Shown piece after piece: positions 5,202 to 55,282 of a stretch of 57,843 nucleotides of DNA; within the stretch, counting starts at the first letter, position 1, and every line of letters begins with the position of its first letter. Origin of the DNA: Erysipelotrichaceae bacterium (GTDB lineage Bacteria; Bacillota_I; Bacilli_A; Erysipelotrichales; Erysipelotrichaceae); NCBI GenBank assembly GCA_017473265.1, contig JAFULQ010000015.1, forward strand, positions 1 through 57,843. Reading direction: 5' to 3'. The notes beneath the pieces were generated by a model that did no database searches, was not told where the DNA came from, and was given only the letters and a program-made list of their open reading frames with translations. The position numbers and the translations under genes were made by a program.

Positions 5202-5510
5202 TTAACCTCTTAAAGTAACTGTTTCACCATTAGGTCCTGGTGTTTCTTTTAAGTAAGCAACAATCGCATCACGTTGTTCTTTCTTACAAGGTTTACAAGG
5301 AGCAGTTGCATTCACATCACCTGTAACTAAAGCTTCAGCCATACCAGAACATCCAGCATAACCACATCCACCACAGTTATATCCAGGTAATAATCCTGTA
5401 ACTTCTTCAATTCTTGCATCTACTTGTACTTCAAATACTTTTGAAGCAACACCCAAAACTAAACCTAAAGCACCACCAATTACTAAAGTAACTAAAATTG
5501 CACTTAACAT
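5202..5510 (-). CDS. rnfB: Short RnfB: membrane anchor plus one Fe-S domain, no ferredoxin modules
   Basis: Protein of 102 residues. Residues 3-25 are a transmembrane helix. Residues 44-76 hold the RnfB-type cluster motif NCGGCGYAGC, then CKPC, as in the 4Fe4S domain of RnfB. Canonical RnfB continues with one or more CxxCxxCxxxCP ferredoxin modules; here the frame stops after TVTLRG and a terminator follows at once, so the C-terminal half is absent rather than frameshifted. It is last in the rnf operon. RnfB normally passes electrons from ferredoxin to the membrane RnfA/E cluster. Identity is firm; the electron route is not known. Confidence 0.85.
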   Translation of the reverse strand: MLSAILVTLVIGGALGLVLGVASKVFEVQVDARIEEVTGLLPGYNCGGCGYAGCSGMAEALVTGDVNATAPCKPCKKEQRDAIVAYLKETPGPNGETVTLRG

Positions 5511-5527
5511 CGTTTTGTCTCCTTCTA

Positions 5528-5698
5528 TTATTCATTATGACTTGGATGATGACCACAACTTGTGATATGACATCCACTACAAGAACTCTCGATTTCCTCA
5601 CAGCCCTCAGGTTTTGGCGTATTCTTGTTTAGGTAATATAGTAACGCATAAACAGAACCCAAACCACCAAGCACTAAAACTAAACCGATCGCTTGCAT
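5528..5698 (-). CDS. Small Cys-rich single-pass membrane protein in the rnf operon
   Basis: This 56-residue frame starts one base after the rnfA stop and ends 17 nt before rnfB. Residues 2-23 form a hydrophobic helix (IGLVLVLGGLGSVYALLYYL). The tail carries C33, C40, C43 and C48 (motif ESSCSGCHITSCGHH) plus several histidines. It resembles the FeoB-associated Cys-rich membrane protein family, but the context is an Rnf operon. A metal or Fe-S ligand role is plausible. Translation is probably coupled to rnfA, as no strong Shine-Dalgarno site precedes it. Confidence 0.75.
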   Translation of the reverse strand: MQAIGLVLVLGGLGSVYALLYYLNKNTPKPEGCEEIESSCSGCHITSCGHHPSHNE

Positions 5699-5699
5699 C

Positions 5700-6278
5700 T
5701 TAAATCAATCCAGCCAATCCGCCGAACGCTAAAGCCATTAAACCAGCAGTAATTAAAGCTAATGGGTTACCTAAGAAAGCCTTAGGAGTTTTCGTATTCA
5801 TATCTAAACGTTCACGAATTGTTGAGAAGATATAAAGAACTAACATAAACCCAACAGAAACACCAACACTGTTTACTAATGTTTCAACAATAGTATATTT
5901 CTTAGTGATATTTTCTAATGCTACAGCTAATACTGCACAGTTTGTTGTAATTAAAGGAAGGAAGATACCCAAACTCTTATAAAGAGATGGTGAGAACTTC
6001 TTCAAGAATAATTCTGTAAATTGTACGAAACATGCAATTACAAGAATAAATGTAATTAATTGTAAATATTCTAATCCAAATGTAACTAATACACCATGGT
6101 ATAAGAAATATGTAATAATTGATGAACCAACGATAACGAATAATACCGCAAAGCCCATACCTAAAGCAGAACTACGATTCTTACTAACTCCCATGAATGG
6201 ACACATTCCTAAGAATTGAGAAAGAATAATATTGTTAATTAAGACTGTTGATAAGAATAAAGTTAATAACTCACCCAT
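5700..6278 (-). CDS. rnfA: Electron transport complex subunit RnfA
   Basis: Integral membrane subunit of 192 residues with six hydrophobic segments. It carries the two conserved cysteines, in LGMCPFMGVS and TTNCAVLAVAL, that with RnfE hold a membrane-embedded iron-sulfur cluster. Length and sequence are typical. AGGAGG precedes the start, placed within the end of rnfE with a 2-nt gap between genes. Confidence 0.95.
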   Translation of the reverse strand: MGELLTLFLSTVLINNIILSQFLGMCPFMGVSKNRSSALGMGFAVLFVIVGSSIITYFLYHGVLVTFGLEYLQLITFILVIACFVQFTELFLKKFSPSLYKSLGIFLPLITTNCAVLAVALENITKKYTIVETLVNSVGVSVGFMLVLYIFSTIRERLDMNTKTPKAFLGNPLALITAGLMALAFGGLAGLI

Positions 6279-6280
6279 AC

Positions 6281-6949
6281 TTATTTAGCCTCCTTTGCTT
6301 TTTTAGCAGCTGCAGCTTGTTTAGCTTCATAACCTTGTTTGTATGCAGCAAATACAGCAGCTAAAATACCGAATGTAATAAATGCACCAACAGGTTTAGA
6401 GAACAATCCAATTGCAAATTCTTCAGGAAGAACTGTAAATTTGAAGATTGTAGCTAAATTTAATGGGTTAGATAAGCTTAATCCACCTTCTGCTAAGAAT
6501 TGACGAATAGCAGATAATGAGAAGATAGCTACTGCATAACCAGCACCCATAACGCATGCATCTTTGATAGAAGTTAACACATTATTTTTACTAGCACATG
6601 CTTCAGCACGACCTAAAATAATACAGTTAACAACAACTAATGAAATGAAAGCACCCATAGATGTATATAAGCTTGTAGCATATGCTTTAATAAACATTTC
6701 AGCTACAGAAACTAATGTCGCAATAATTACGATATACACAGGAATACGAATTTCATTAGGTGTAATTTTACGTAATAAACTAACGATAATATTTGAGAAC
6801 AATAATACAACAAATACAAGTAAACTCATACCTAATGCATTATCTAATGATGTTGAAACCCCCAAAATAGAACAAATACCTAAGTAAAGAACAAATACAG
6901 GGTTTTCAAGAATCAAACTTTGTAAAAAATTTGGCTTTTTATTTTCCAT
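6281..6949 (-). CDS. rnfE: Electron transport complex subunit RnfE
   Basis: Membrane subunit of 222 residues, a paralogue of RnfA. The paired cysteines lie in LGICSILGVS and VVNCIILGRAEA. The C-terminus is a charged, alanine- and lysine-rich cytoplasmic tail (AAAAKKAKEAK). It pairs with RnfA in the membrane and relays electrons across it. A GGAGG site is 8 nt before the start. Confidence 0.95.
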   Translation of the reverse strand: MENKKPNFLQSLILENPVFVLYLGICSILGVSTSLDNALGMSLLVFVVLLFSNIIVSLLRKITPNEIRIPVYIVIIATLVSVAEMFIKAYATSLYTSMGAFISLVVVNCIILGRAEACASKNNVLTSIKDACVMGAGYAVAIFSLSAIRQFLAEGGLSLSNPLNLATIFKFTVLPEEFAIGLFSKPVGAFITFGILAAVFAAYKQGYEAKQAAAAKKAKEAK

Positions 6950-6961
6950 GATTCATTCCTC

Positions 6962-7474
6962 CTATTTTAAATTTGCTTCATAATGAGCAACAGCCGCATC
7001 AATACCACCAACTACAGCACTACTTGAAACAGTAGAACCAGAAATTGTATCGATTGAAGCACCAACATCTTTACCTACGATACTATTTACAAAGCTATCA
7101 GAAGCAACTTTGTCACCAATACCTTTAGTATCACTACAAGAAATTACTGTATAACCAGCAATTTTACCATCAGTACCAAAAGCAACCATGAATTCGATAG
7201 AACCAGATCCACTGAATCCATTTACAGCTAATTTATAAACATAACCAGCATCACCAGCTTGATAAATATTTTGAATTAAACCAGTTTCATCATCAAAACC
7301 TTCGATTGGTAAGAATTCAGCACCTGGATAAATTAATTCTAAGTTCGCTTTATCAGCAGCAACTTTATTTGCATTGATACGATCAATAGTTAAATCATTT
7401 GCTAATGTTAAAGCACCACCAGCTAAGGCACTAACAATAGCCAAGAAAAATGCTAAATATAACGCTCTTTTCAT
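6962..7474 (-). CDS. rnfG: Electron transport complex subunit RnfG (FMN protein)
   Basis: 170 residues. An N-terminal signal-anchor (residues 4-27) is followed by an extracytoplasmic FMN-binding domain. The covalent flavinylation motif DTISGST places the modified threonine at about T148, in SGSTVSSSAV. FMN is attached through a phosphoester bond by ApbE, whose gene is divergent from this operon. RnfG receives electrons from the RnfA/E cluster and passes them to RnfD. Length is slightly short but within the family range. Confidence 0.94.
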   Translation of the reverse strand: MKRALYLAFFLAIVSALAGGALTLANDLTIDRINANKVAADKANLELIYPGAEFLPIEGFDDETGLIQNIYQAGDAGYVYKLAVNGFSGSGSIEFMVAFGTDGKIAGYTVISCSDTKGIGDKVASDSFVNSIVGKDVGASIDTISGSTVSSSAVVGGIDAAVAHYEANLK

Positions 7475-7479
7475 TTCTA

Positions 7480-8970
7480 TTACCCCCTAGCCGCATTGAT
7501 AGCTGCTTGAACAGCACTCATAACTGATTTAGATGTAATTGTAGCATTTGTAACTGCATCAACAGTTGCATCAGTACTATCAATTGACATACCTTCAAAT
7601 TGACTCATGAAACGAGAATCCTTAGTTGTATCACCAACATATTCTGTATCAGAGAACTTCACATATTCAACTTTAACAACTGTTCTAGTAGCTGTATCAA
7701 TTGTTACATTGTATACGTTAGGTTGAGCATTATCATAGTGACCAAATGCATAACCATTAGCTTCAACAGTATAAATTACATTGCTTCCATCTTTTGTTTT
7801 ACCTGTAACTTTAGCAGGATAATCAGCAGAATAATCATCAGCTAATGATAAATGTTGAGTTTCAGATAAGAAAGAAGGTTTCTTTGGAGGTTGTGGAACC
7901 ACTGGAGCAATCATTGTAGAAACAACAAATGTTAATCCACAAGCTACAGCCACAACACCAGCTAATAAAGGCATAACCTTTTTGCCCATATTGTATTGAA
8001 CACCAACACATGCACGTTCAATCCATGGTGTTAACATGTTCATTAATAAGATTGAATATAATACACCTTCTGGTAAAGAACCTTTAACACGAATTAATAC
8101 AGTAATTAAACCACATCCAATTGCGAAAATGATTTTACCAGCACGAGTTGTAGGATTTGTTACAGGGTCAGTAGCCATAAATACAGCACCAAATGCAACA
8201 CCACCTGTTAATAAATGGAATACAGGATACCATAAACCAGCACCATGATATAATCCGATAATTAATGCTAATACAAATACTGTACCTAAATAGAATACAG
8301 GAACTCTCCAGTCAATGATGTTACGAACAACTAAGTATACACCTAAAACTAAAATTAAGATTGTGCAAGTTTCCCCTAAAGCACCATCATGCATACCAGT
8401 TAATAAACCGAACATTCCACCGAATTGATCCATGAATTTATCTAATACATCTTGTTGGTTAATAATCCAACCATATGTACCAGCAATAGTCTTAGTTGGA
8501 GTAGCACCAGTAACAACATCTTTAGCTACACTTGTTGCGAAATAAGAGAAAATTACTGCACAACCAGCAGCTGCAGGGTTGAAAATGTTAGTACCAAATC
8601 CACCGAAGAATAATTTAGCAACCACAATCGCAAAGATTGTACCAATGATAACAGGATATACTTGAGTATTTACTGGAACCATTAATACTAAAATAATAGC
8701 AGTAACCCAAGGGAAAGAATCACGTAAGTAATCCAATGGATTTTCCTTAGCTACTAAGATAGCCCATAAAACTTCACAAACAACAGCAGTTACTAATGCG
8801 CTACCCATTAAAATTAAAGTATGAATAACATTACCAATACCGTGTGCTGTAAATTGATAGAATAATGCAAATGCAAATACTACCAATAAGCAAACAGTAA
8901 GTTCTAACATTACTTTTCTTGTACTAGCCCCACAATGGTAATTAGGAGCTGGATTCAATTTAAATTTCAT
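7480..8970 (-). CDS. rnfD: RnfD with a fused C-terminal FMN-binding domain
   Basis: 496 residues, against about 300-350 usual for RnfD. The membrane part (about residues 20-355) has the NqrB/RnfD flavinylation motif DVVTGATP (threonine near 157). After a Pro/Lys linker (VVPQPPKKP), residues 370-496 form a second FMN_bind domain resembling RnfG and ending in DAVTNATITSKSV, whose threonine near 477 fits the ApbE target consensus. The ATG at 8970 is used; a GTG one codon upstream overlaps the rnfC stop. The fusion is seen directly; flavinylation is inferred. Confidence 0.92.
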   Translation of the reverse strand: MKFKLNPAPNYHCGASTRKVMLELTVCLLVVFAFALFYQFTAHGIGNVIHTLILMGSALVTAVVCEVLWAILVAKENPLDYLRDSFPWVTAIILVLMVPVNTQVYPVIIGTIFAIVVAKLFFGGFGTNIFNPAAAGCAVIFSYFATSVAKDVVTGATPTKTIAGTYGWIINQQDVLDKFMDQFGGMFGLLTGMHDGALGETCTILILVLGVYLVVRNIIDWRVPVFYLGTVFVLALIIGLYHGAGLWYPVFHLLTGGVAFGAVFMATDPVTNPTTRAGKIIFAIGCGLITVLIRVKGSLPEGVLYSILLMNMLTPWIERACVGVQYNMGKKVMPLLAGVVAVACGLTFVVSTMIAPVVPQPPKKPSFLSETQHLSLADDYSADYPAKVTGKTKDGSNVIYTVEANGYAFGHYDNAQPNVYNVTIDTATRTVVKVEYVKFSDTEYVGDTTKDSRFMSQFEGMSIDSTDATVDAVTNATITSKSVMSAVQAAINAARG

Positions 8971-8972
8971 CA

Positions 8973-10277
8973 CTATTTACCTCCCTTTTTAGGCGCCATT
9001 GCCAAGACTTGTTTAGCTCTTCTAATACCTTCAGTTACTTTGATATGAGAAGGACAAACATATGTACACATACCACATTCAATACAACGTGCTACTTCTA
9101 ATTTTTCTAACATATCAATATCTTTGATACGTCCAGCATTGTTAATACGTACTGGTTGAATACCAGCAGGACAGAAATCATTACAACGTCCACAACGTAA
9201 ACATCCGATTTCTTTTTCTTCTTTTGCTTCTAATACTGTAACAGCATTCATCGCATGGTGAATTACAAATTGATCATTATTGATAGTTTTACCCATCATA
9301 GGACCACCAGCAATAATATGAACGTTTTCTTTGCTATATCCACCTAATTGTTTAATAATTTCCCCAACAGGAACACCAACTGGAACTAAAACGTTAGCAG
9401 GATTTGCTAATGCTTCACCAGAGAATGTAACCATCTTAGAAACGATAGGTTCACCTGTTTTCATAGCTCTTGCTAAAGATAAAGCTGTTGTAGAGTTATT
9501 TACAACAATACCAATTTCACTAGGTAAACGATCATAACGTTTCTTAGTTACTTGATAAATTAATGTACGTTCCCAACCCATTGGATATACATCAGGAACT
9601 TCTTTAATTTCTACACCCTCAACATTTGCTACAGCTTCTTTCATTACTGGGATAATATCTTTCTTAGTTTCTTTGATTGCAATATAAGCAACTTCAGCAT
9701 CACAAGCTTTTTTCATAGCCACAACACCTTCAACTAATAAAGCTAACTCAGCTTCAGTAACTTTATAGTCTGCAGTAATATAAGGTTCACATTCAACATC
9801 ATTAATAATTAATGTTTGAATCTTGTTCGCTGGATTATATTTGACATAAGTAGGGAAGCCAGCGCCACCGCATCCTACCATACCACTATTTTTCATAAAC
9901 TCAACGATTTCTTCTCTTGTTGCAGTTTTATAATCTAATGGTTCGATATCAAACTTCTTAGTGTAATTACCATCGTTAGCAATTACGATGTGCTCTACTA
10001 ATTTCAAGCTACCATGCATTCTTTTTTCAATTCCTAAAACTGTTCCAGAAACACTAGAGAACAATGGAACTGTAAAATGATCATTACGCACAGCAAGTCT
10101 AGTACCTACACAAACTGCATCGCCTTCTTTAACTAGTACTTCAAACTTTGTACTTCCCATGCTAATTAAAGGAATATACACTTTTTCACCAGCTAAAACT
10201 TTTACGACTTCAGTATGAGCAGTCAATTCTTTTTTACCATCAACATGCTTGCGCATTGGACCTGTAAATAATGACAT
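8973..10277 (-). CDS. rnfC: Electron transport complex subunit RnfC
   Basis: 434-residue peripheral subunit that binds NADH and FMN and exchanges electrons with NAD. The glycine-rich loop CGGAGFPTYVKY, an SLBB region and two 4Fe4S motifs (GCLRCGRCNDFCP and CIECGMCTYVCP near residues 366-415) are all present. The start at 10277 (MSLFTGPMRK) follows AAGGGAG; the longer upstream frame would begin at or before the transcription start predicted from the -10 at 10315-10320. First gene of the operon C-D-G-E-A-small protein-B. Confidence 0.95.
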   Translation of the reverse strand: MSLFTGPMRKHVDGKKELTAHTEVVKVLAGEKVYIPLISMGSTKFEVLVKEGDAVCVGTRLAVRNDHFTVPLFSSVSGTVLGIEKRMHGSLKLVEHIVIANDGNYTKKFDIEPLDYKTATREEIVEFMKNSGMVGCGGAGFPTYVKYNPANKIQTLIINDVECEPYITADYKVTEAELALLVEGVVAMKKACDAEVAYIAIKETKKDIIPVMKEAVANVEGVEIKEVPDVYPMGWERTLIYQVTKKRYDRLPSEIGIVVNNSTTALSLARAMKTGEPIVSKMVTFSGEALANPANVLVPVGVPVGEIIKQLGGYSKENVHIIAGGPMMGKTINNDQFVIHHAMNAVTVLEAKEEKEIGCLRCGRCNDFCPAGIQPVRINNAGRIKDIDMLEKLEVARCIECGMCTYVCPSHIKVTEGIRRAKQVLAMAPKKGGK

Positions 10278-10314
10278 TACAAATTCTCCCTTCTGAATAA
10301 TCATATTCTTCAAT

Positions 10315-10320: not shown

Positions 10321-10394
10321 GCACTATTCTCAAAAATGTATCACACTATTTTCATTTTTTATTTACATAATTATGGGCATAAAAGATACACTTA

Positions 10395-10403
10395 TGCTAT
10401 AAT
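10395..10403 (+). promoter_or_regulatory. Extended -10 element of apbE
   Basis: TGCTATAAT on the plus strand, back to back with the rnf promoter about 80 nt away, so flavin transferase and its substrates share one regulatory interval. No convincing -35 is present. Confidence 0.65.
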
Positions 10404-10422
10404 GTCCCCGGTGATGAAAGAA

Positions 10423-11535
10423 ATGAAAAAGTTATTCGTATTATTTATTTTATTATGTACACTTTTTGGATGTACACCAAAAGAACCTGTTTACAACAAA
10501 TACCCTAAAGTCATTTTAGGTTTTGACACTATGATTACCATGAATGCCTATGCAACAAACGATAAAGATGCTCTAACCTATTCACAAATCTTAGAAAATG
10601 CATTCACAAAATACAATCAATTATTTGACAAATACAACGATTATGAAGGCGTAAACAACATTAAAACCATTAATGATAATGCTGGAAAACAAAAAGTAAC
10701 CGTTGAACAACCAATTATTGATTTATTATTACTTGCGAAAGAATACACAGAAATTACCAATGGCACATTTGATATTACTATGGGAAACACTATGGTTTTA
10801 TGGCACAACTATCGTGATCAAGGAGAACAAATCAATTTAAGCGGAAGTGATGATGTTCCACTTCCTACTACTAAAGAATTACAAGAAAGCGCAAAATACG
10901 CTGGTTGGAAATATGTAGAAATCGATGATGAAAACAACACAGTATACATTACAAATGAACATGTATCACTAGATGTTGGAGCTATCGCAAAAGGATATAC
11001 AACAGAAGTTGTAGCTCAAGAACTTGAAAAAGCTGGTATGTTATTTGGAAATGTCAATGGTGGCGGAAATGTCCGTGTAGTTGGTAATAAAGTTGATGGA
11101 AAACCTTGGAGTGTTGGAATTGCTAATCCAAATGATCCATATGGAGATACAGTCACAACTATTTATACCGGTGGAAACATGTCTGTAGTAACTAGTGGTG
11201 ATTACCAACGTTACTTTGTTTCAAATGGTAAAATTTATAGCCATATCATTGATCCAGATACATTGTTCCCTGCTACACACCATCGTTCAGTTACCATCGT
11301 AACAGAAGATTCTGGTGTAGCGGATATCCTATCTACTGCACTATATGTTATGGACTTAGAAGAAGGATTACAATTTGTAGAAAACTATAACAAAACACAA
11401 GAAAAACCTGTTGCTGTTGTTTGGGTATATGATGTAGACAATCACCCTGAATCTAGTTTAGGTAAAGAACTAAATGGTGTTTATATTGTAGCTACAGAAA
11501 ACATTCAAGAAAACTTAAGAGAGTTTGGTAAGTAA
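10423..11535 (+). CDS. apbE: ApbE family FAD:protein FMN transferase (lipoprotein)
   Basis: 370 residues. The signal peptide ends in the lipobox LFGC, giving a membrane-anchored extracytoplasmic lipoprotein. ApbE motifs include the N-terminal GFDTMITM, the DVGAIAKGY segment, VNGGGNVRVVG and the metal-binding region VTSGDYQRYF with HIIDP. It transfers FMN from FAD to threonines of RnfG and RnfD. The ATG at 10423 is used because GGTGAT lies 7 nt before it and the -10 element at 10398-10403 excludes the much longer upstream frame. Divergent from rnfC. Confidence 0.94.
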   Translation: MKKLFVLFILLCTLFGCTPKEPVYNKYPKVILGFDTMITMNAYATNDKDALTYSQILENAFTKYNQLFDKYNDYEGVNNIKTINDNAGKQKVTVEQPIIDLLLLAKEYTEITNGTFDITMGNTMVLWHNYRDQGEQINLSGSDDVPLPTTKELQESAKYAGWKYVEIDDENNTVYITNEHVSLDVGAIAKGYTTEVVAQELEKAGMLFGNVNGGGNVRVVGNKVDGKPWSVGIANPNDPYGDTVTTIYTGGNMSVVTSGDYQRYFVSNGKIYSHIIDPDTLFPATHHRSVTIVTEDSGVADILSTALYVMDLEEGLQFVENYNKTQEKPVAVVWVYDVDNHPESSLGKELNGVYIVATENIQENLREFGK

Positions 11536-47608: not shown

Positions 47609-49537
47609 ATGAAAACAATCACATTAGAAACATTAGAAAAGTTTAAGTATTTATCCGACTTAAAAGTACATAATCATGATTTATATTATGTAGAAACAGC
47701 TATGGATATGGAAAATAATAATTACAAACAACGTCTTCATAAATACAATACATTAACAAATGAAGACAGCATTTACATTGACTACAAAAAACGTTGTACA
47801 ACCTATTTAATGAATGATGGATCATTCCTATACGCAGACCAAGATCCAGAATCAAAAACGGTACATACACGTTTAACAAAAATAGAAAATGGAGAATTTA
47901 AAAATTCATTTACACTACCTTTACAAGTAAGTAACATTAAAGACTTAAACGAAGAATCATATTTAGTACAAGCAACTATCAATCGTAGTTGTCCTGAATA
48001 TCATCATTTAACACTTGAACAACAACTACAAGTTGAACAAGCCAAAAAAGACAATGAAGACTATGTAGTCTTTGATGAATATCCATTCTTCTATAATGGT
48101 GCAGGCATTATTAATGGTGATCGTAATACTTTATTCTTAGTCAATAAACAAACATTAGAAATTACAAATCTAATTCCATTAACTGTTGATGTTGAATCTT
48201 ATGATATTGATGGTGATGAACTTGTCTATGCAGGTGTAGATTTTACAGATGTGAAAGGTTTATGGAGTTGGGTTTGGAAAGTCAATCTTAAAACATTAGA
48301 AACAGAAGTATTATTTGATGATGTATTAATGATTGGTAGAGTATTCTATTATAATCATAAAGTTATTTTAACAGGTACAAATGGTGCCGCTGTAGATGGA
48401 AAAGACTTCTATGAATTAAAAGATAAACAATTACATTTATTATTCAAAAATGAAAACTGCTTATACAATAGCATTCTTACAGATGCTCGTTATGGCAGAA
48501 TGAAAAACTACTATAAATTCAATAACGATTCTTATTTCATTGGCGTTGAATACCATACATCTTATATTTACAAATTCACTGAAACTGGTTTAGTTAAAAT
48601 GAATGATTTTGATGGTGCAAGTGATGATGTTGTTGTGAATGAACATGGTATATGGATGTTAGGCTTAGTTGATCAAAAACTATCTGAACTATATGCTATA
48701 GTTGATAAAAAGCCTGTACAATTAACACACATTAATAATGTAGATGATTATTATGTAGCGACACCTCAACGCATTTGGTTAAAGAAAGATGTAGATATTC
48801 AAGGTTGGGTATTATTACCTAAAGACTATGATGAAAACAAAACATACCCTGCTATTTTAGATATTCACGGTGGTCCTAAGTGTACATATGGTGAAGTTTT
48901 CTATCATGAAATGCAAGCATGGGCAAATATGGGATATTTTGTAATGTTCTGTAACCCAAGATGTTCTGATGGTAGAGGAAATGAATTCGCAAACTTTATG
49001 AAACATTATGGTAAAACAGACTATGAAGATTTAATGGATTTTGTTGATGAAGTATTGCGCTTATATCCAGCAATTGATGCTGAACAATTAGGAGTTGCTG
49101 GTGGAAGCTATGGTGGCTTTATGTGTAACTGGATTATCGGTCATACTGACCGTTTCAAAGCTGCTTGTTCACAACGTTCAATTTCTAATAGAATTGCTCA
49201 AATTTGTTATAGCGATTATGGTATTGACACTCCATACGAATTCAATATTTATGATGTAGATGATTGTTTTGATGTATTCTGGGATATTTCTCCATTAAAA
49301 TACGCAAACAATGCGAAAACCCCTACATTATTTATTCACGCTACAGAAGACTATCGTTGTCCAATTTCTGAAGCTATTCAAATGTATACTGTATTGAAAT
49401 GTCGTGGTGTAGATACAAAATTAGTAGCCTTCATTGGTGAAAACCATGAATTATCTCGTGCTGGTAAACCTAAACACCGTTTACGCAGATTAAATGAAAT
49501 GACAGATTGGTTAAATCATTACGTAAAAAAGGATTAG
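47609..49537 (+). CDS. S9 family (prolyl oligopeptidase-like) serine peptidase
   Basis: 642 residues. An N-terminal beta-propeller (about 1-380) is followed by an alpha/beta hydrolase domain with the nucleophile GGSYGGFMCNW, the aspartate in IHATEDYRCP and the histidine in GENHELS. It resembles acylaminoacyl peptidases such as YuxL and cleaves small peptides in the cytosol. The internal ATG at 47609 is 8 nt after GGGAG. Its stop overlaps the convergent aroA stop. Confidence 0.92.
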   Translation: MKTITLETLEKFKYLSDLKVHNHDLYYVETAMDMENNNYKQRLHKYNTLTNEDSIYIDYKKRCTTYLMNDGSFLYADQDPESKTVHTRLTKIENGEFKNSFTLPLQVSNIKDLNEESYLVQATINRSCPEYHHLTLEQQLQVEQAKKDNEDYVVFDEYPFFYNGAGIINGDRNTLFLVNKQTLEITNLIPLTVDVESYDIDGDELVYAGVDFTDVKGLWSWVWKVNLKTLETEVLFDDVLMIGRVFYYNHKVILTGTNGAAVDGKDFYELKDKQLHLLFKNENCLYNSILTDARYGRMKNYYKFNNDSYFIGVEYHTSYIYKFTETGLVKMNDFDGASDDVVVNEHGIWMLGLVDQKLSELYAIVDKKPVQLTHINNVDDYYVATPQRIWLKKDVDIQGWVLLPKDYDENKTYPAILDIHGGPKCTYGEVFYHEMQAWANMGYFVMFCNPRCSDGRGNEFANFMKHYGKTDYEDLMDFVDEVLRLYPAIDAEQLGVAGGSYGGFMCNWIIGHTDRFKAACSQRSISNRIAQICYSDYGIDTPYEFNIYDVDDCFDVFWDISPLKYANNAKTPTLFIHATEDYRCPISEAIQMYTVLKCRGVDTKLVAFIGENHELSRAGKPKHRLRRLNEMTDWLNHYVKKD

Positions 49538-49556
49538 AAATTTTCTAATCCTTTTA
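49526..49556. terminator. Bidirectional terminator over convergent stop codons
   Basis: GGATTAGAA and TTCTAATCC pair around a short loop with A- and T-runs; the stops of the S9 peptidase and aroA overlap within the left arm. Confidence 0.85.
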
Positions 49557-50796
49557 TTTTGATACCTAATTTTGCTAAATCATCAAAGAAATGTGGATAC
49601 GATTTACTAACTGCTTCTGCTCCTTGAATTGTTATTCCATTTTCAGACACAATCGCTCCGATTGCTAAAGCCATAACAATACGATGATCATTATGTCCAT
49701 CTACCATACATGGCGTATTCCATTTCTTACTACCTGTAATCCATACTTCATCTTCTGTTGTAAGGAGATCAACACCTAGTTTTCGTAGTTCACATTCCAT
49801 TGCACAAATACGATCACTTTCTTTGATTCGTAATCTTTTACAATTGATAAAATGCGTAGTACCCTCCGCTAACGAAGCACATACAAATAATATCGGACCT
49901 AAATCTGGACAGTTTTGTAAATCTATTGTTGTACTATGTAATGAATCCCCTTTTACACAAACACCATCTTCATTCCAAACAATTGAACATCCCATATTAG
50001 TTAAGATATCCAATATTGCTTTATCCCCTTGTAAACTATTAGGATTCGCATGTAAACAAGTAATAGGTATTCCTAATGCTCCTAAACCTGCAAAAAATGC
50101 TAATTGTGAATAATCAGCTTCAATTGTTACATTTTGAGATTGATATATCTGATTTCCTTTAATGAATATTGTTGTATCATCTATCCATTCAACCACAACA
50201 CCAAATTGCTTTAACATATCCACTGTTAAATCTACATACGATTTAGATGCAAATTCTCCTTGTATTTTGATTTGAGAATCATTATCACACAAAGGTAATG
50301 CAAATAATAATCCAGAAATAAATTGCGAACTAACATTCCCATCAATTTCATAGTTTCCACTCTTCAAACATTCTTCAACAACAATTTCTTGCTCATTATG
50401 TTCAAAGTGACTAAATATATTTTGATATATATTTTGTGGACGTTCTAATAAACGTTTTGTACCTTGTAAGGTTACTTTTTGTTTTGTTAAAGATGCTATA
50501 GGAATCATAAAACGCAAAGTAGACCCTGATTCATTACACCACAATGTATATTCCCTATTTTCAAAACATTCAATACCTGTAATTTCAAGTGTATTTCCTT
50601 TTTTAAGAATTTTAGCCCCCAATTGTTCCATACAACCAATCGTTGCCTCAAGATCCTTGGACATATCTACATTATAAATATGAGATGTACCTTTAGCCAA
50701 TGATGCACAAATGATGGCACGATGTCCTAACGATTTACTAGAAGGAATACGAATTTGTTTTTCAATACATTTTGAAGGTTCAATAGTAACCAACAT
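49534..50796 (-). CDS. aroA: EPSP synthase (3-phosphoshikimate 1-carboxyvinyltransferase)
   Basis: 420 residues. Joins shikimate-3-phosphate and PEP. Motifs include the N-terminal IRIPSSKSLGHRAIICASLAKG, CNESGSTLRFM, GNVSSQFISGLLFALP, the catalytic D/E region (DCPDLGPILF-like) and DGHNDHRIVMALAIGA. The overall pattern has the 420-residue class. Last gene of the aro operon; its start overlaps the aroF stop (TAATG). Confidence 0.94.
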   Translation of the reverse strand: MLVTIEPSKCIEKQIRIPSSKSLGHRAIICASLAKGTSHIYNVDMSKDLEATIGCMEQLGAKILKKGNTLEITGIECFENREYTLWCNESGSTLRFMIPIASLTKQKVTLQGTKRLLERPQNIYQNIFSHFEHNEQEIVVEECLKSGNYEIDGNVSSQFISGLLFALPLCDNDSQIKIQGEFASKSYVDLTVDMLKQFGVVVEWIDDTTIFIKGNQIYQSQNVTIEADYSQLAFFAGLGALGIPITCLHANPNSLQGDKAILDILTNMGCSIVWNEDGVCVKGDSLHSTTIDLQNCPDLGPILFVCASLAEGTTHFINCKRLRIKESDRICAMECELRKLGVDLLTTEDEVWITGSKKWNTPCMVDGHNDHRIVMALAIGAIVSENGITIQGAEAVSKSYPHFFDDLAKLGIKIKGLENF

Positions 50797-51812
50797 TAGA
50801 TACTTCTCCCTAAAACTTCTGCTACTTTTTTTACTTTTTCTACCAAAGTTTTAAATTTTTCTGGTTTTAATGATTGTGAGCCATCACTCCAAGCACATTC
50901 CGGTTGATCATGAACTTCAATCATTAAACCATCACACCCTGCCGCAACAGCAGCCAAAGACATAGCTTCTACCAATTTCCAATCACCTGTCGCATGAGAA
51001 GGATCAATAATAATAGGTAAATGCGTTCTTTCTTTAATAATTGGAATAACACTTACATCCAATGTATTGCGAGTCAACGTTTCAAAGGTACGAATCCCAC
51101 GTTCACATAAAATAACATTTGGATTTCCATTAGCCATAATATATTCAGCAGACATTAACCATTCTTCAATGGTATTTGCCATACCACGTTTTAATAAAAT
51201 TGGTTTATTTACTTTGCCTAACGCTTTTAATAACTCAAAGTTTTGCATATTTCTTGCACCAACTTGAATAACATCAACATTTTTAACAAACTCATCAATT
51301 TTATCAATACTCATTAATTCTGATACAATTGGCATACCCGTTAATTCTTTCGCATGCACCATGCATTGAATTCCTTCCGTTTGCATCCCTTGGAAAGCAT
51401 ATGGAGAAGTACGAGGCTTATAGGCACCACCACGCATCATTTTACCACCTGCATCTTTAACATCTTGTGCTAAACGACACATCATCTCATCACCTTCAAC
51501 AGAACATGGTCCACCAATAATAACTAGTGGTTGCCCCGCTCCAATTTTAACATCTCCAACCTCAATAATCGTATCTTCAGGATGCACATAACGACTTACT
51601 AGTTTATATGGCACATCCATACGACGTACTTCAATTACCCAAGGATTTGCTAGAATACGCTTATCATCCACTTTAATGGTATCACCCGTTAAAGCTAGTA
51701 ATGTCATATGTACGCCTTCAATTATCGTAATTTGAAAATCTTGATTTTCTAAATCCGTAATTAATTTTTGTTTTTCTATTTCTGGAGTATGTTTTTTTAA
51801 TGAAATAATCAT
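50796..51812 (-). CDS. aroF: DAHP synthase with N-terminal ferredoxin-like regulatory domain
   Basis: 338 residues. First enzyme of the shikimate pathway, condensing PEP and erythrose-4-phosphate. Residues 1-70 form a ferredoxin-like domain as in the Thermotoga enzyme, where Tyr and Phe inhibit. The barrel carries IIGGPCSVEGDEMM, MRGGAYKPRTSPYAFQG, ILLKRGMANTIEEW and IDPSHATGDW. The conserved Cys, His and Arg residues for metal and phosphate are present. Between aroEK and aroA. Confidence 0.94.
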   Translation of the reverse strand: MIISLKKHTPEIEKQKLITDLENQDFQITIIEGVHMTLLALTGDTIKVDDKRILANPWVIEVRRMDVPYKLVSRYVHPEDTIIEVGDVKIGAGQPLVIIGGPCSVEGDEMMCRLAQDVKDAGGKMMRGGAYKPRTSPYAFQGMQTEGIQCMVHAKELTGMPIVSELMSIDKIDEFVKNVDVIQVGARNMQNFELLKALGKVNKPILLKRGMANTIEEWLMSAEYIMANGNPNVILCERGIRTFETLTRNTLDVSVIPIIKERTHLPIIIDPSHATGDWKLVEAMSLAAVAAGCDGLMIEVHDQPECAWSDGSQSLKPEKFKTLVEKVKKVAEVLGRSI

Positions 51813-51825
51813 GCTTTCTCCCCTT

Positions 51826-53049
51826 TTATAAGATCTCTACAATCTTTTGTACTACCTCTTCTATAGTACCATTATTTTCAATAATATAATCACTATATCC
51901 TTCATATAATGACTTTCTATCTTCATATAATTTCAAAATTGCCTCTTTACTTGAACTTAAAGGACGCGTATCATCCGCAATTAACAAATCAAGATTACGT
52001 TGAATATAAATAATTTTACCATTCTGTTTTAAGGCTATCATATTCTCTTCACGTTTAATGATTCCACCACCACAAGAAAGAATCAACCCTGTTTGTTGAC
52101 TTAGTTCTTTGGCAATTTGTGTTTCACAATCACGGAAATAATCTTCCCCATATTGTTCAAATAACGCAGGAATACTTCCATATCGTTCTACAATCTTAGC
52201 ATCTAAATCTACTACTTGTTTATTTAAATGTTGTGCCAATGCTTTCGCAATGGTACTTTTGCCACAACTTGGCATACCAATGAAAACAATATTTTGTTTT
52301 TCTTTTTCTAATTGCTTGGTAATAGTTGTAATACAACTATCATCCAAGCAATTACCTGTAAAAATTTCTACTGCTTCTTTTGCTTGAGCTACAAGCATCA
52401 TTAAGCCACCTGCAGTTTTTACACCATTTCTTTCTGCCTCAACAAGAAACTTGGTTTTTAGTGGATTATAAATAACATCAACTGCACTCTCTAAGTGAGT
52501 AAACCTTTTTACATCTATAGGTGTACAATTACCATTAGGATACATTCCTACTGGCGTTGTATTTACAATCACTTGTGCATCTTTATGCTTAGCGTAACAT
52601 TCTTCATAAGTAATCCCGTTTTTTCCTTTAGGATGCACAAAAACAACTTCTTTAGCCTGTAAATCCGCTAAAACCGCATAGACTGCTTTAGAAGCTCCCC
52701 CAACACCTAACACAATGACTTTGCGATCTTTAATCGTAATATCATTGTACTCTAACATATACTTAAAGCCATAATAATCCGTATTATATCCTTTTAAACA
52801 ACCATCCACATTAACAATTGTATTCACTGCACCAATCTTTTGCGCATGTTCACTAATTTCATCTAAATAAGGAATAACGGTTTGTTTATAAGGAATCGTA
52901 ACATTCACTGCATGAAAGTTTTTTTCTTTTAAAAATACATCCAACTCTTCAGCAGTTAATTCAATCATATCAAAAGTATAATCAGCCAACTGTTCATGAA
53001 TACCTTTGGAATAACTATGACCTAATTTCGCTCCAATTAATCCATACAT
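51826..53049 (-). CDS. aroEK: Fused shikimate dehydrogenase-shikimate kinase
   Basis: 407 residues carrying two enzymes. Residues 1-260 are AroE: LIGAKLGHSYSKGIHE, VNVTIPYKQTVIPYLD, VLGVGGASKAVYAVL and NTTPVGMYP. Residues 268-407 are AroK: Walker A GMPSCGKST, DLDAKIVERYG, the shikimate-binding EDYFRDCE and CGGGII, and the lid arginine in TRPLSS. It would reduce 3-dehydroshikimate and phosphorylate shikimate. The ATG at 53049 overlaps aroC by 13 nt; GGTGG precedes it. Confidence 0.94.
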   Translation of the reverse strand: MYGLIGAKLGHSYSKGIHEQLADYTFDMIELTAEELDVFLKEKNFHAVNVTIPYKQTVIPYLDEISEHAQKIGAVNTIVNVDGCLKGYNTDYYGFKYMLEYNDITIKDRKVIVLGVGGASKAVYAVLADLQAKEVVFVHPKGKNGITYEECYAKHKDAQVIVNTTPVGMYPNGNCTPIDVKRFTHLESAVDVIYNPLKTKFLVEAERNGVKTAGGLMMLVAQAKEAVEIFTGNCLDDSCITTITKQLEKEKQNIVFIGMPSCGKSTIAKALAQHLNKQVVDLDAKIVERYGSIPALFEQYGEDYFRDCETQIAKELSQQTGLILSCGGGIIKREENMIALKQNGKIIYIQRNLDLLIADDTRPLSSSKEAILKLYEDRKSLYEGYSDYIIENNGTIEEVVQKIVEIL

Positions 53050-54149
53050 GGCATCCACCAACTTGTTCCATATACTTCCGTTAACATATCCACTAACGCT
53101 AATGCAAGTAAACTATCTTGTACAACTCTAGCACGATGAATAATTGCAGGATCATGACGACCAGTAATTGCTACAGTTGTATTTTCTAATGTTTGCATAT
53201 TGATTGTTTCTTGTTCTTTTGCAATAGATGGAGTAGGTTTTACTACTGTTTTTACAAGAATTGGCATACCATTACTGATACCACCATTAATACCACCATT
53301 ATGATTAGTTGTAGTCACAACATTCCCATGTTCATATCTAAACGCATCATTTGCACTAGAACCATACATATTTGCGAAAGAAAAACCACTTCCAAACTCA
53401 ATACCTTTAATACCACCAATACTAAATAAATAGTGAGAAATTACACTTTCTAATGAATCAAAGAATGGTTCTCCAATACCACTAGGCAATCCTACAATTG
53501 CACTTTCTAACACACCACCAACAGAATCTTGTTGTAAACGTGCTAGTTCAATCGTTTCTTCCATTTTTTGCCCAATATATTCATTTAATACCGCAAAATA
53601 CATCGTATTTACTTTATCTATTTCATGCTTTAATTCTTCAGCATTACTACTAAACGCATCATCAAATACATTATATAACTGCAAAATATGTGTGCCGATA
53701 GAAATACCCTTTTGTTGTAATAACTGTAAAGCAACAGCACCAGCAGCCACAATTGGAGCCGTTAAACGACCAGAAAAATGACCACCACCACGATAATCTT
53801 GATAACCATGATATTTAATATTCGCCACATAATCCGCATGAGAAGGACGAGCAATATCTTTTAATGAACTATAATCCTTACTCTTTTGATCTTGATTCTC
53901 CATTAAAATCGTAATAGGAGTACCTGTAGTTTTCCCTTCAAATACACCACTCACAATCTTAGGCATATCACTTTCTTTACGCGCAGTAGAAATACTTCCT
54001 TGAGGTTTACGTTTATCCAATTGCTTTAACATGAATTCCATATCAATAGAAACACCTGCACACACACCATCTAATACACAACCAATCATATCTCCATGTG
54101 ATTCACCAAATACGGTAATCGCAACATTTTTTCCAATTGTATTCTTCAT
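53037..54149 (-). CDS. aroC: Chorismate synthase
   Basis: 370 residues. Forms chorismate from EPSP using reduced FMN. Signatures are FGESHGDMIGCVLDGVCAG, ARPSHADYVANIKYHGYQDYRGGGHFSGRLTAP-type block and GNVVTTTNHNGGINGGISNGMPI. RHDPAII near the C-terminus is also typical. Second gene of the operon, one base after aroB. Confidence 0.95.
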   Translation of the reverse strand: MKNTIGKNVAITVFGESHGDMIGCVLDGVCAGVSIDMEFMLKQLDKRKPQGSISTARKESDMPKIVSGVFEGKTTGTPITILMENQDQKSKDYSSLKDIARPSHADYVANIKYHGYQDYRGGGHFSGRLTAPIVAAGAVALQLLQQKGISIGTHILQLYNVFDDAFSSNAEELKHEIDKVNTMYFAVLNEYIGQKMEETIELARLQQDSVGGVLESAIVGLPSGIGEPFFDSLESVISHYLFSIGGIKGIEFGSGFSFANMYGSSANDAFRYEHGNVVTTTNHNGGINGGISNGMPILVKTVVKPTPSIAKEQETINMQTLENTTVAITGRHDPAIIHRARVVQDSLLALALVDMLTEVYGTSWWMPCMD

Positions 54150-54150
54150 A

Positions 54151-55146
54151 TTAAAACTTCACCTTCAATTCTTCTTGCGTCATATCTATTATACATGCTT
54201 GCCCAATTTCTTTCACTTGAACTACACTCACCATATTCGCTACTTTCTTTTTATCATGTAACATATACTCAAAACTTTTTTGTTTATCATATTCATATTC
54301 TAATGGCATATTCCATTTTTCTAAAACACGAACCAATCGTTTTCGAACGCTTTCATCTTCCACCATTTTAACCATACCCAAAGCAACTGCTTCACCATGT
54401 AATAATTCATAGTTAGAAGCACTTTCAATACCATGACCTAAAGTATGTCCAAAATTCAAAATTTTACGTAATCCCAATTCTTTCTCATCAATTTCAACAA
54501 CTGCTTTTTTCACCATGAGACTACGATATAAAATTTCTTCAATTTGTTCTTTTACATCACAATCTTCTAATAATTCAAATAGTTCTTGATCATATATAGC
54601 TCCACTTTTTAAAGCTTCAACTAAACCACTATAAAAATGACGATTACTTAATGTATCTAATGTATTTGGATCAATAAACACTGCTTTCGGTTGATAAAAT
54701 GAACCAATACAATTCTTAACATTTCCTAAATCAATAGCTGTTTTACCACCAATACTACTATCCACTTGTGCTAAAGTAGTTGTCGGAATATTAATAAAAT
54801 CAATACCACGCATATAAGTACTTGCTACAAAACCACACAAATCACCAACAACACCACCACCAACAGCAATCATCAAATCTTTTCTAGAAAACCCTAATTC
54901 TAGCATCTTTTGAATCAATGCTTGATAGTTTTCAATATTCTTAGAAGATTCACCTTGTTCAATACATACAATAGTAGCTTCTTTACATTGTTTTTGAACA
55001 CATTCACTATACTTACTAGGTACTCCAGTATCTGTTACAATCAATACTTTACGTTGTAAATCTATGTATTGATTTACATTTGTTAAAATACCTTTTTCAA
55101 TATAGATAGGATAACTTCTCTCTTGTAAATCCACTACAATCTTCAT
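54151..55146 (-). CDS. aroB: 3-dehydroquinate synthase
   Basis: 331 residues. NAD-dependent cyclisation of DAHP. Motifs: AVGGGVVGDLCGFVASTYMRGIDFI-type block, PTTTLAQVDSSIGGKTAIDL, the metal ligands GLRKILNFGHTLGHGIES and LLHGEAVALGM. First gene of the operon aroB-aroC-aroEK-aroF-aroA, starting just downstream of an intrinsic terminator. GGAGGG precedes the ATG. Confidence 0.95.
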   Translation of the reverse strand: MKIVVDLQERSYPIYIEKGILTNVNQYIDLQRKVLIVTDTGVPSKYSECVQKQCKEATIVCIEQGESSKNIENYQALIQKMLELGFSRKDLMIAVGGGVVGDLCGFVASTYMRGIDFINIPTTTLAQVDSSIGGKTAIDLGNVKNCIGSFYQPKAVFIDPNTLDTLSNRHFYSGLVEALKSGAIYDQELFELLEDCDVKEQIEEILYRSLMVKKAVVEIDEKELGLRKILNFGHTLGHGIESASNYELLHGEAVALGMVKMVEDESVRKRLVRVLEKWNMPLEYEYDKQKSFEYMLHDKKKVANMVSVVQVKEIGQACIIDMTQEELKVKF

Positions 55147-55162
55147 AAACCCTCCATTAAAG

Positions 55163-55192
55163 AAAAAATCCGAACGGATAACCTGTTCGGAT
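55163..55192 (-). terminator. Intrinsic terminator (attenuator) in the aro leader
   Basis: ATCCGAAC and GTTCGGAT form an 8-bp stem with a 9-nt loop, followed by TTTTTT in the aroB sense, only about 17 nt before aroB. Placed upstream of the operon, it must be bypassed for expression. Confidence 0.8.
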
Positions 55193-55219
55193 AAATATTC
55201 CTTTCAGATATCAGCCGCG

Positions 55220-55246
55220 CTAATAATATGTATAACGCCACTTCAT
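55220..55246 (-). CDS. Putative aro leader peptide MKWRYTYY
   Basis: An 8-codon frame (ATG to TAG) encodes one Trp and three Tyr, ending 28 nt before the attenuator stem. No Shine-Dalgarno site is visible; if transcription starts from the TATTAT box the ATG is at the 5' end and would be leaderless. Aromatic richness upstream of aromatic biosynthesis genes is the main support. Confidence 0.55.
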   Translation of the reverse strand: MKWRYTYY

Positions 55247-55253
55247 TTTTTAC

Positions 55254-55282
55254 ATAATAGCATCAATCCATTATATTTTCAA
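55254..55282 (-). promoter_or_regulatory. Promoter of the aro operon
   Basis: -35 TTGAAA and -10 TATTAT with 17-nt spacing and TGC before the -10. A second possible -10, TATAAT, lies at 55270-55275 with TGTACA 17 nt upstream. Confidence 0.6.

Follow-up and report, generated by a model that had tools for sequence, protein, structure and literature searches.

Attenuators governed by a leader peptide are known from several groups of bacteria. His leader attenuators precede the his operons of Erysipelotrichales (PMC9413887) and have been described in bacilli (PMC2965389), and a Leu-rich attenuator peptide is known from Staphylococcus aureus (PMC5794164). For the shikimate pathway, the uORFC-13-1 motif, located ahead of aroF, has been described only from Acholeplasma and from environmental sequences (PMC8632094). 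Our search of the open-licence literature returned no description of such an attenuator before aroB in the family studied here.

The locus in question lies in a stretch of 57,843 nucleotides from an Erysipelotrichaceae bacterium (contig JAFULQ010000015.1), hereafter the window. Between gdhA and aroB, on the minus strand, sit an eight-codon frame reading MKWRYTYY (codons ATGAAGTGGCGTTATACATATTATTAG) and an intrinsic terminator (Table 1). The original prediction regarded this frame, in which four of the eight residues are Tyr or Trp, as the sensor of a ribosome-mediated attenuator of the aro genes. Its physical parts were readily recovered: the frame is present between a promoter and aroB, and the terminator that follows it (ATCCGAAC-A-GG-TTAT-CC-GTTCGGAT at 55192-55168, plus T6 at 55168-55163) is strong, at -12.1 kcal/mol. 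A pattern scan for terminators did not pick up this structure, probably because of its bulge. The promoter recurs in the nearest species, G003, and transcription is predicted to start one base ahead of the ATG, so that the MKWRYTYY frame would be leaderless; the frame also has no Shine-Dalgarno (SD) site. When upstream regions are shuffled, about 4% of them yield a frame with at least four aromatic residues in the last eight codons, and a chance frame like MKWRYTYY is therefore not rare. The operon headed by aroB belongs to a complete pathway to chorismate in the window genome (G000), with a type I dehydroquinase encoded elsewhere. Farther along the window (5202-10313) a membrane-protein cluster, judged by eye, resembles an Rnf electron-transport complex and has an ApbE-like protein alongside (10336-11535).

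Table 1. Features of the aroB leader and of the operon downstream, in window coordinates
Feature	Coordinates	Strand	Remark
-35 box TTGAAA (predicted promoter)	55277..55282	-	Same hexamer and same 17-nt spacing in G003
-10 box TATTAT	55254..55259	-	TATCAT in G003; predicted start site about 55247
Frame MKWRYTYY*, functional leader peptide improbable	55220..55246	-	AAAAATGAAGTGGC matches AAAAATGAGGTGGC of G002 (SD of a true leader)
Hairpin P1 (AGU-g-GCGUUA ... UAGCGC-g-GCU)	55213..55242	-	Stem same in G003, loop exchanged
Element C, CGGCTGATATCTGA	55204..55217	-	Homologue of family C segment AGGCATTATCTGA; near-identical to AGGCTGATATCTA of G002
Intrinsic terminator and T tract (attenuator)	55163..55192	-	G003 copy identical
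aroB, 3-dehydroquinate synthase, at the head of the operon	54151..55146	-	
aroC, chorismate synthase	53037..54149	-	
aroE-aroK fusion, shikimate dehydrogenase and kinase	51826..53061	-	
DAHP synthase, aroF type	50796..51812	-	
aroA, EPSP synthase	49534..50796	-	

Leader peptides before aroB proved to be widespread in the family. The gene was detected in 143 of 273 family genomes, and 128 upstream regions were analysed; a leader was scored as a short, stop-ended frame with at least four aromatic residues in its last eight codons, and dinucleotide shuffles served as the control. By this measure 78 of the 128 regions carry a leader, the window's own frame counted among them, against 5.3 expected, and with at least five aromatic residues the count is 56 against 1.05. 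Regulatory codons are thus in clear excess over chance upstream of this pathway gene in the relatives. Examples include MKNLNLHNQTYFYYYAFR in G002 (same genus as the window genome), MHNKGYYYYR in G009, MIKLLQNSYFYFYFR in G296 and MKQNNILKGFFYYFR in Anaerorhabdus furcosa. The 787 residues of 58 family leaders include 178 Tyr and 133 Phe but not one Trp, and the chorismate-binding family PF00425, which includes the anthranilate and aminodeoxychorismate synthases, is absent from 13 of 13 family genomes tested. Sensing of Trp was rejected on these two grounds. The survey thus brings to light an attenuator with a Phe/Tyr leader peptide that is widespread in this Gram-positive family. Other hairpin plans also accompany Phe/Tyr leaders (L004, L006, L031, L048, L073 and L007, L015, L037, L040), and before aroB these take the form of CGTTATAAAG...CTTTATAACG or GCCCC...GGGGC stems followed by a GCATC...GATGC terminator.

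Forty leaders share a common plan, in which the stop codon is followed by segment A (GGGC..), segment B (..AGATATTGCCC), segment C (AGGCATTATCTGA) and a terminator whose loop, GGATAATGCC, mimics segment B. Among 32 non-redundant leaders, the A:B, B:C and C:terminator loop pairings are each stronger with the leader's own partner than with a swapped one (0 of 2000 permutations). The B:C helix is 93% paired with 12 doubly changed cells, C:terminator 88% with 21, and the terminator stem 96% with 51 (0 of 500 shuffles in each case), pair counts that are inflated by kinship among the sequences; covariation in all three stands well above that of slid controls. Mutually exclusive helices are thereby backed by covariation in the relatives, and from the position of A relative to the stop codon we infer the order in which they would switch. 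In the intact version the leader peptide would close with a run of Tyr/Phe codons and the stop, with A starting just past it. With Phe and Tyr plentiful, a ribosome at the stop would cover A, B would pair with C, and the terminator would form. When they are scarce, a ribosome stalled upstream would leave A to pair with B, and the freed C would pair with the loop and 3' arm of the terminator, allowing transcription to continue.

The window copy is a homologue of this element. A covariance model made from the 32 non-redundant leaders, with the window left out, returned the window element as its top match (28.2 bits, E 0.0016; the next match has 14.8 bits) and gave 23.2 bits for the G003 element, while the held-out intact leaders L094, L099, L112 and L165 scored 57-92 bits. 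Element C is shared almost letter for letter by the window and G002. In an ungapped local match, AAAAATGAAGTGGC of the window occupies the place of AAAAATGAGGTGGC, the SD of the G002 leader, and 13 of 3000 shuffles match equally well; a global alignment of the two leaders was dropped, its 5' part being misplaced. The window leader has no clear A or B segment and no SD-led aromatic peptide. Its upstream:C pairing amounts to -8.0 kcal/mol against a family mean of -13.0, and its C:terminator pairing to -7.1 against -14.1, although one family member is equally weak in the latter (-6.7). The weak alternative pairing of the original prediction exists, at half the strength seen in relatives. That prediction was right in kind, since the region descends from a ribosome-mediated aro attenuator of a sort common in the family; it appears wrong for the copy in the window, which has no SD, whose frame covers the position of the G002 SD, and whose genome lacks the Phe, Tyr and Trp branch enzymes that were searched for (see below). 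A class-wide scan with the model under strict filters found four genomes and missed the window genome itself, and we place little weight on the distribution it gives. In another family of the class (G353; L255, about 1380-1620) the model matches what is probably a His leader, MKIQLQEQVHWHHHF; its hairpins are arranged in a similar way, and a his-type gene lies farther downstream.

This homology bears on another account of the locus, namely that the terminator is a leftover devoid of a regulatory role, the frame a product of chance, and the aroB ribosome-binding site the only part of the leader that matters. The frequency of such frames in shuffled regions and the missing sensor parts agree with it, but the leader folds better than 200 of 200 shuffles (z -3.1), and C and the terminator, both homologues of parts of the family element, show no change from one species to the other, so we find this account barely credible.

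The loss of the sensor is paralleled by a loss of enzymes. Prephenate dehydratase (PDT) is absent from the window genome and from G003 (95% and 85% complete, respectively), in which prephenate dehydrogenase (PDH) matches are only sub-threshold; two other members of the genus, G002 and G001, have both enzymes. Two PDH_N matches in the window genome (21.6 and 20.2 bits, below the cut-off of 26.5) probably represent other NAD-binding dehydrogenases, judging from length and the short match, and a match in G067 just above the cut-off (27.4 bits) is likewise read as such a dehydrogenase. In G002 and G001 the relevant locus carries ppaC, tyrA, a chorismate mutase-PDT fusion (pheA) and an aminotransferase. 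The syntenic locus of the window genome and G003 retains ppaC, the aminotransferase and a chorismate mutase of 103 residues, which ends where the PDT domain would start. An assembly gap was rejected as the cause of the absence, since in each of the two genomes the syntenic locus is assembled and contains neither enzyme. The stand-alone chorismate mutase is seen at G000:C20:9696-9929 (L149, L250) and at G003:C98 (L249). The shikimate genes are still conserved in both genomes, although nothing known to consume chorismate or prephenate was detected. As the searches of the window genome yielded neither PDT nor PDH nor a chorismate-binding enzyme, the regulatory amino acid does not appear to be a product of the pathway there.

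A similar relation holds more widely. Among 41 genomes with aroB, the leader occurs in none of the six that lack PDT and PDH and in 28 of the 35 others (Fisher 3.8e-4, a value to be taken as a guide only, the species being related and a few leader calls having been made by inspection); the count scores the MKWRYTYY frame of the window as no leader, and leaving its genome out gives 0 of 5. Contrasts between leader and enzymes are found within genera g1, g11, g31 and g51, and because they recur, a link of the leader peptide to biosynthetic capacity can be tested. No leader precedes aroB in seven tested genomes that have both PDT and PDH, so a genome with the branch need not have a leader as well. 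Two genomes with PDH and without PDT have Tyr-rich leaders, MNKKLYYYKN and MHIHEIYSYYYFR.

We consider it probable that the window leader derives, in shortened form, from the family-wide Phe/Tyr ribosome-mediated attenuator, the sensor having been lost along with the ends of the pathway. Homology, peptide loss, enzyme loss and the covariation in relatives are the observations behind this reading. In the window lineage, tyrA and the PDT part of pheA are gone; the SD, the start and the aromatic run would have disappeared from the leader, with A and B shrinking to hairpin P1, and C would no longer pair well with the terminator. Promoter, hairpin, C and terminator would remain, probably setting basal aro transcription with aromatic amino acids no longer sensed. 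The conserved leftover RNA may be either a fixed or a rewired terminator. If so, the locus would show a regulator dismantled upon loss of its pathway ends.

Comparison with G003, a metagenome-assembled genome from water-buffalo rectum, bears on what the remnant does. The aroB genes differ at 39 of 993 bases and at 14 of 100 fourfold sites (14%). About 96 bases of the leader are without change, including the P1 stem, element C and the terminator; the changes fall in a short spacer and in the P1 loop with the Tyr codons, TACATATTAT in the window and TAAAAGAGAGT in G003. The resulting G003 frame, MKWRYKRELARLISERNMQSEQVIRSDFFFNGGF, has no stop, is in frame with aroB and stays open through the terminator. 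Between the two genomes, then, conservation extends to stem and terminator but not to the peptide, an outcome that the original prediction had itself named as one that would refute it. The G003 leader (L002/L152) also has a second in-frame ATG preceded by an SD-like AAAGGAAT.

That MKWRYTYY is translated leaderless, and that stalling at its Tyr/Trp codons controls the terminator as first proposed, is very unlikely in our estimation. Frame and terminator both exist, relatives use Tyr/Phe leaders before aroB, and with the predicted start at the AUG leaderless translation is conceivable; but G003 lacks both the Tyr codons and the stop, the frame has no SD, Trp is never found in family leaders, and the genome is without detected Phe, Tyr and Trp branch enzymes. 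A ribosome stalled at Tyr5 would moreover sit over the 5' half of the P1 stem, reversing the family logic.

The roughly 96 unchanged bases indicate that the remnant cannot drift freely, and a role as a basal terminator only may therefore be too simple. The element may instead have been rewired, P1, C and terminator forming a different switch triggered not by Phe/Tyr codons but by some ligand or protein, or by a ribosome that initiates at the 5' AUG; we regard this as unlikely, though with a real chance of being right. Stem, C and terminator are identical in the two genomes despite the difference at fourfold sites, P1 and C share GGCU, so that the two folds compete, and the G003 frame from the 5' AUG is open into aroB, so that a ribosome translating it would pass over the terminator. 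The comparison has only two sequences, however, and these are close; the conserved stretch is in good part terminator and aroB ribosome-binding site, constrained anyway; the C:terminator pairing is weak; and Rfam gives no family match. A fuller version, in which the old attenuator was rebuilt after the loss of Phe/Tyr synthesis so that P1, C and terminator answer another signal, possibly a ribosome from the 5'-terminal AUG that in G003 would continue in frame past the terminator and into AroB, appears distinctly improbable.

Comparable elements to a Phe/Tyr attenuator before aroB are already known at Acholeplasma aroF and at Erysipelotrichales his operons. The Acholeplasma motif uORFC-13-1 (PMC8632094) resembles it by description, in that a terminator and a short frame containing one or more Phe codons precede a shikimate-pathway gene, and differs in gene (aroF) and in host. 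The His leaders of Erysipelotrichales (PMC9413887) likewise combine leader peptide, attenuator, antiterminator and terminator hairpins, and differ in their His codons and his operon. T-box riboswitches control amino-acid genes in the window genome, which carries 16 of them, by our reading of the downstream translations ahead of pheS, tyrS, trpS, other synthetases and transporters; among family genomes T-boxes were checked in this one. None lies at aroB: as originally predicted, the Rfam search matched no T-box, nor any other family, within the window, and no RF00230 at the aroB locus. With 16 T-boxes in the genome, a missing T-box at aroB does not reflect absence of the T-box system. The closest counterparts of the window element are the aroB attenuators of its own family, such as those of G002 and Anaerorhabdus furcosa, which it resembles in position before aroB, promoter, element C, terminator and covariance-model match, and from which it differs in lacking an SD-led aromatic peptide and clear A and B segments and in its weak C:terminator pairing. 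As in classical attenuators (E. coli trp, phe and his; Rfam leader families), peptide stalling would choose among alternative helices in the family element. What sets it apart is the overlap of four helices, A:B, B:C, C:terminator and the stem of the terminator, by which a stalled ribosome would favour the first hairpin.
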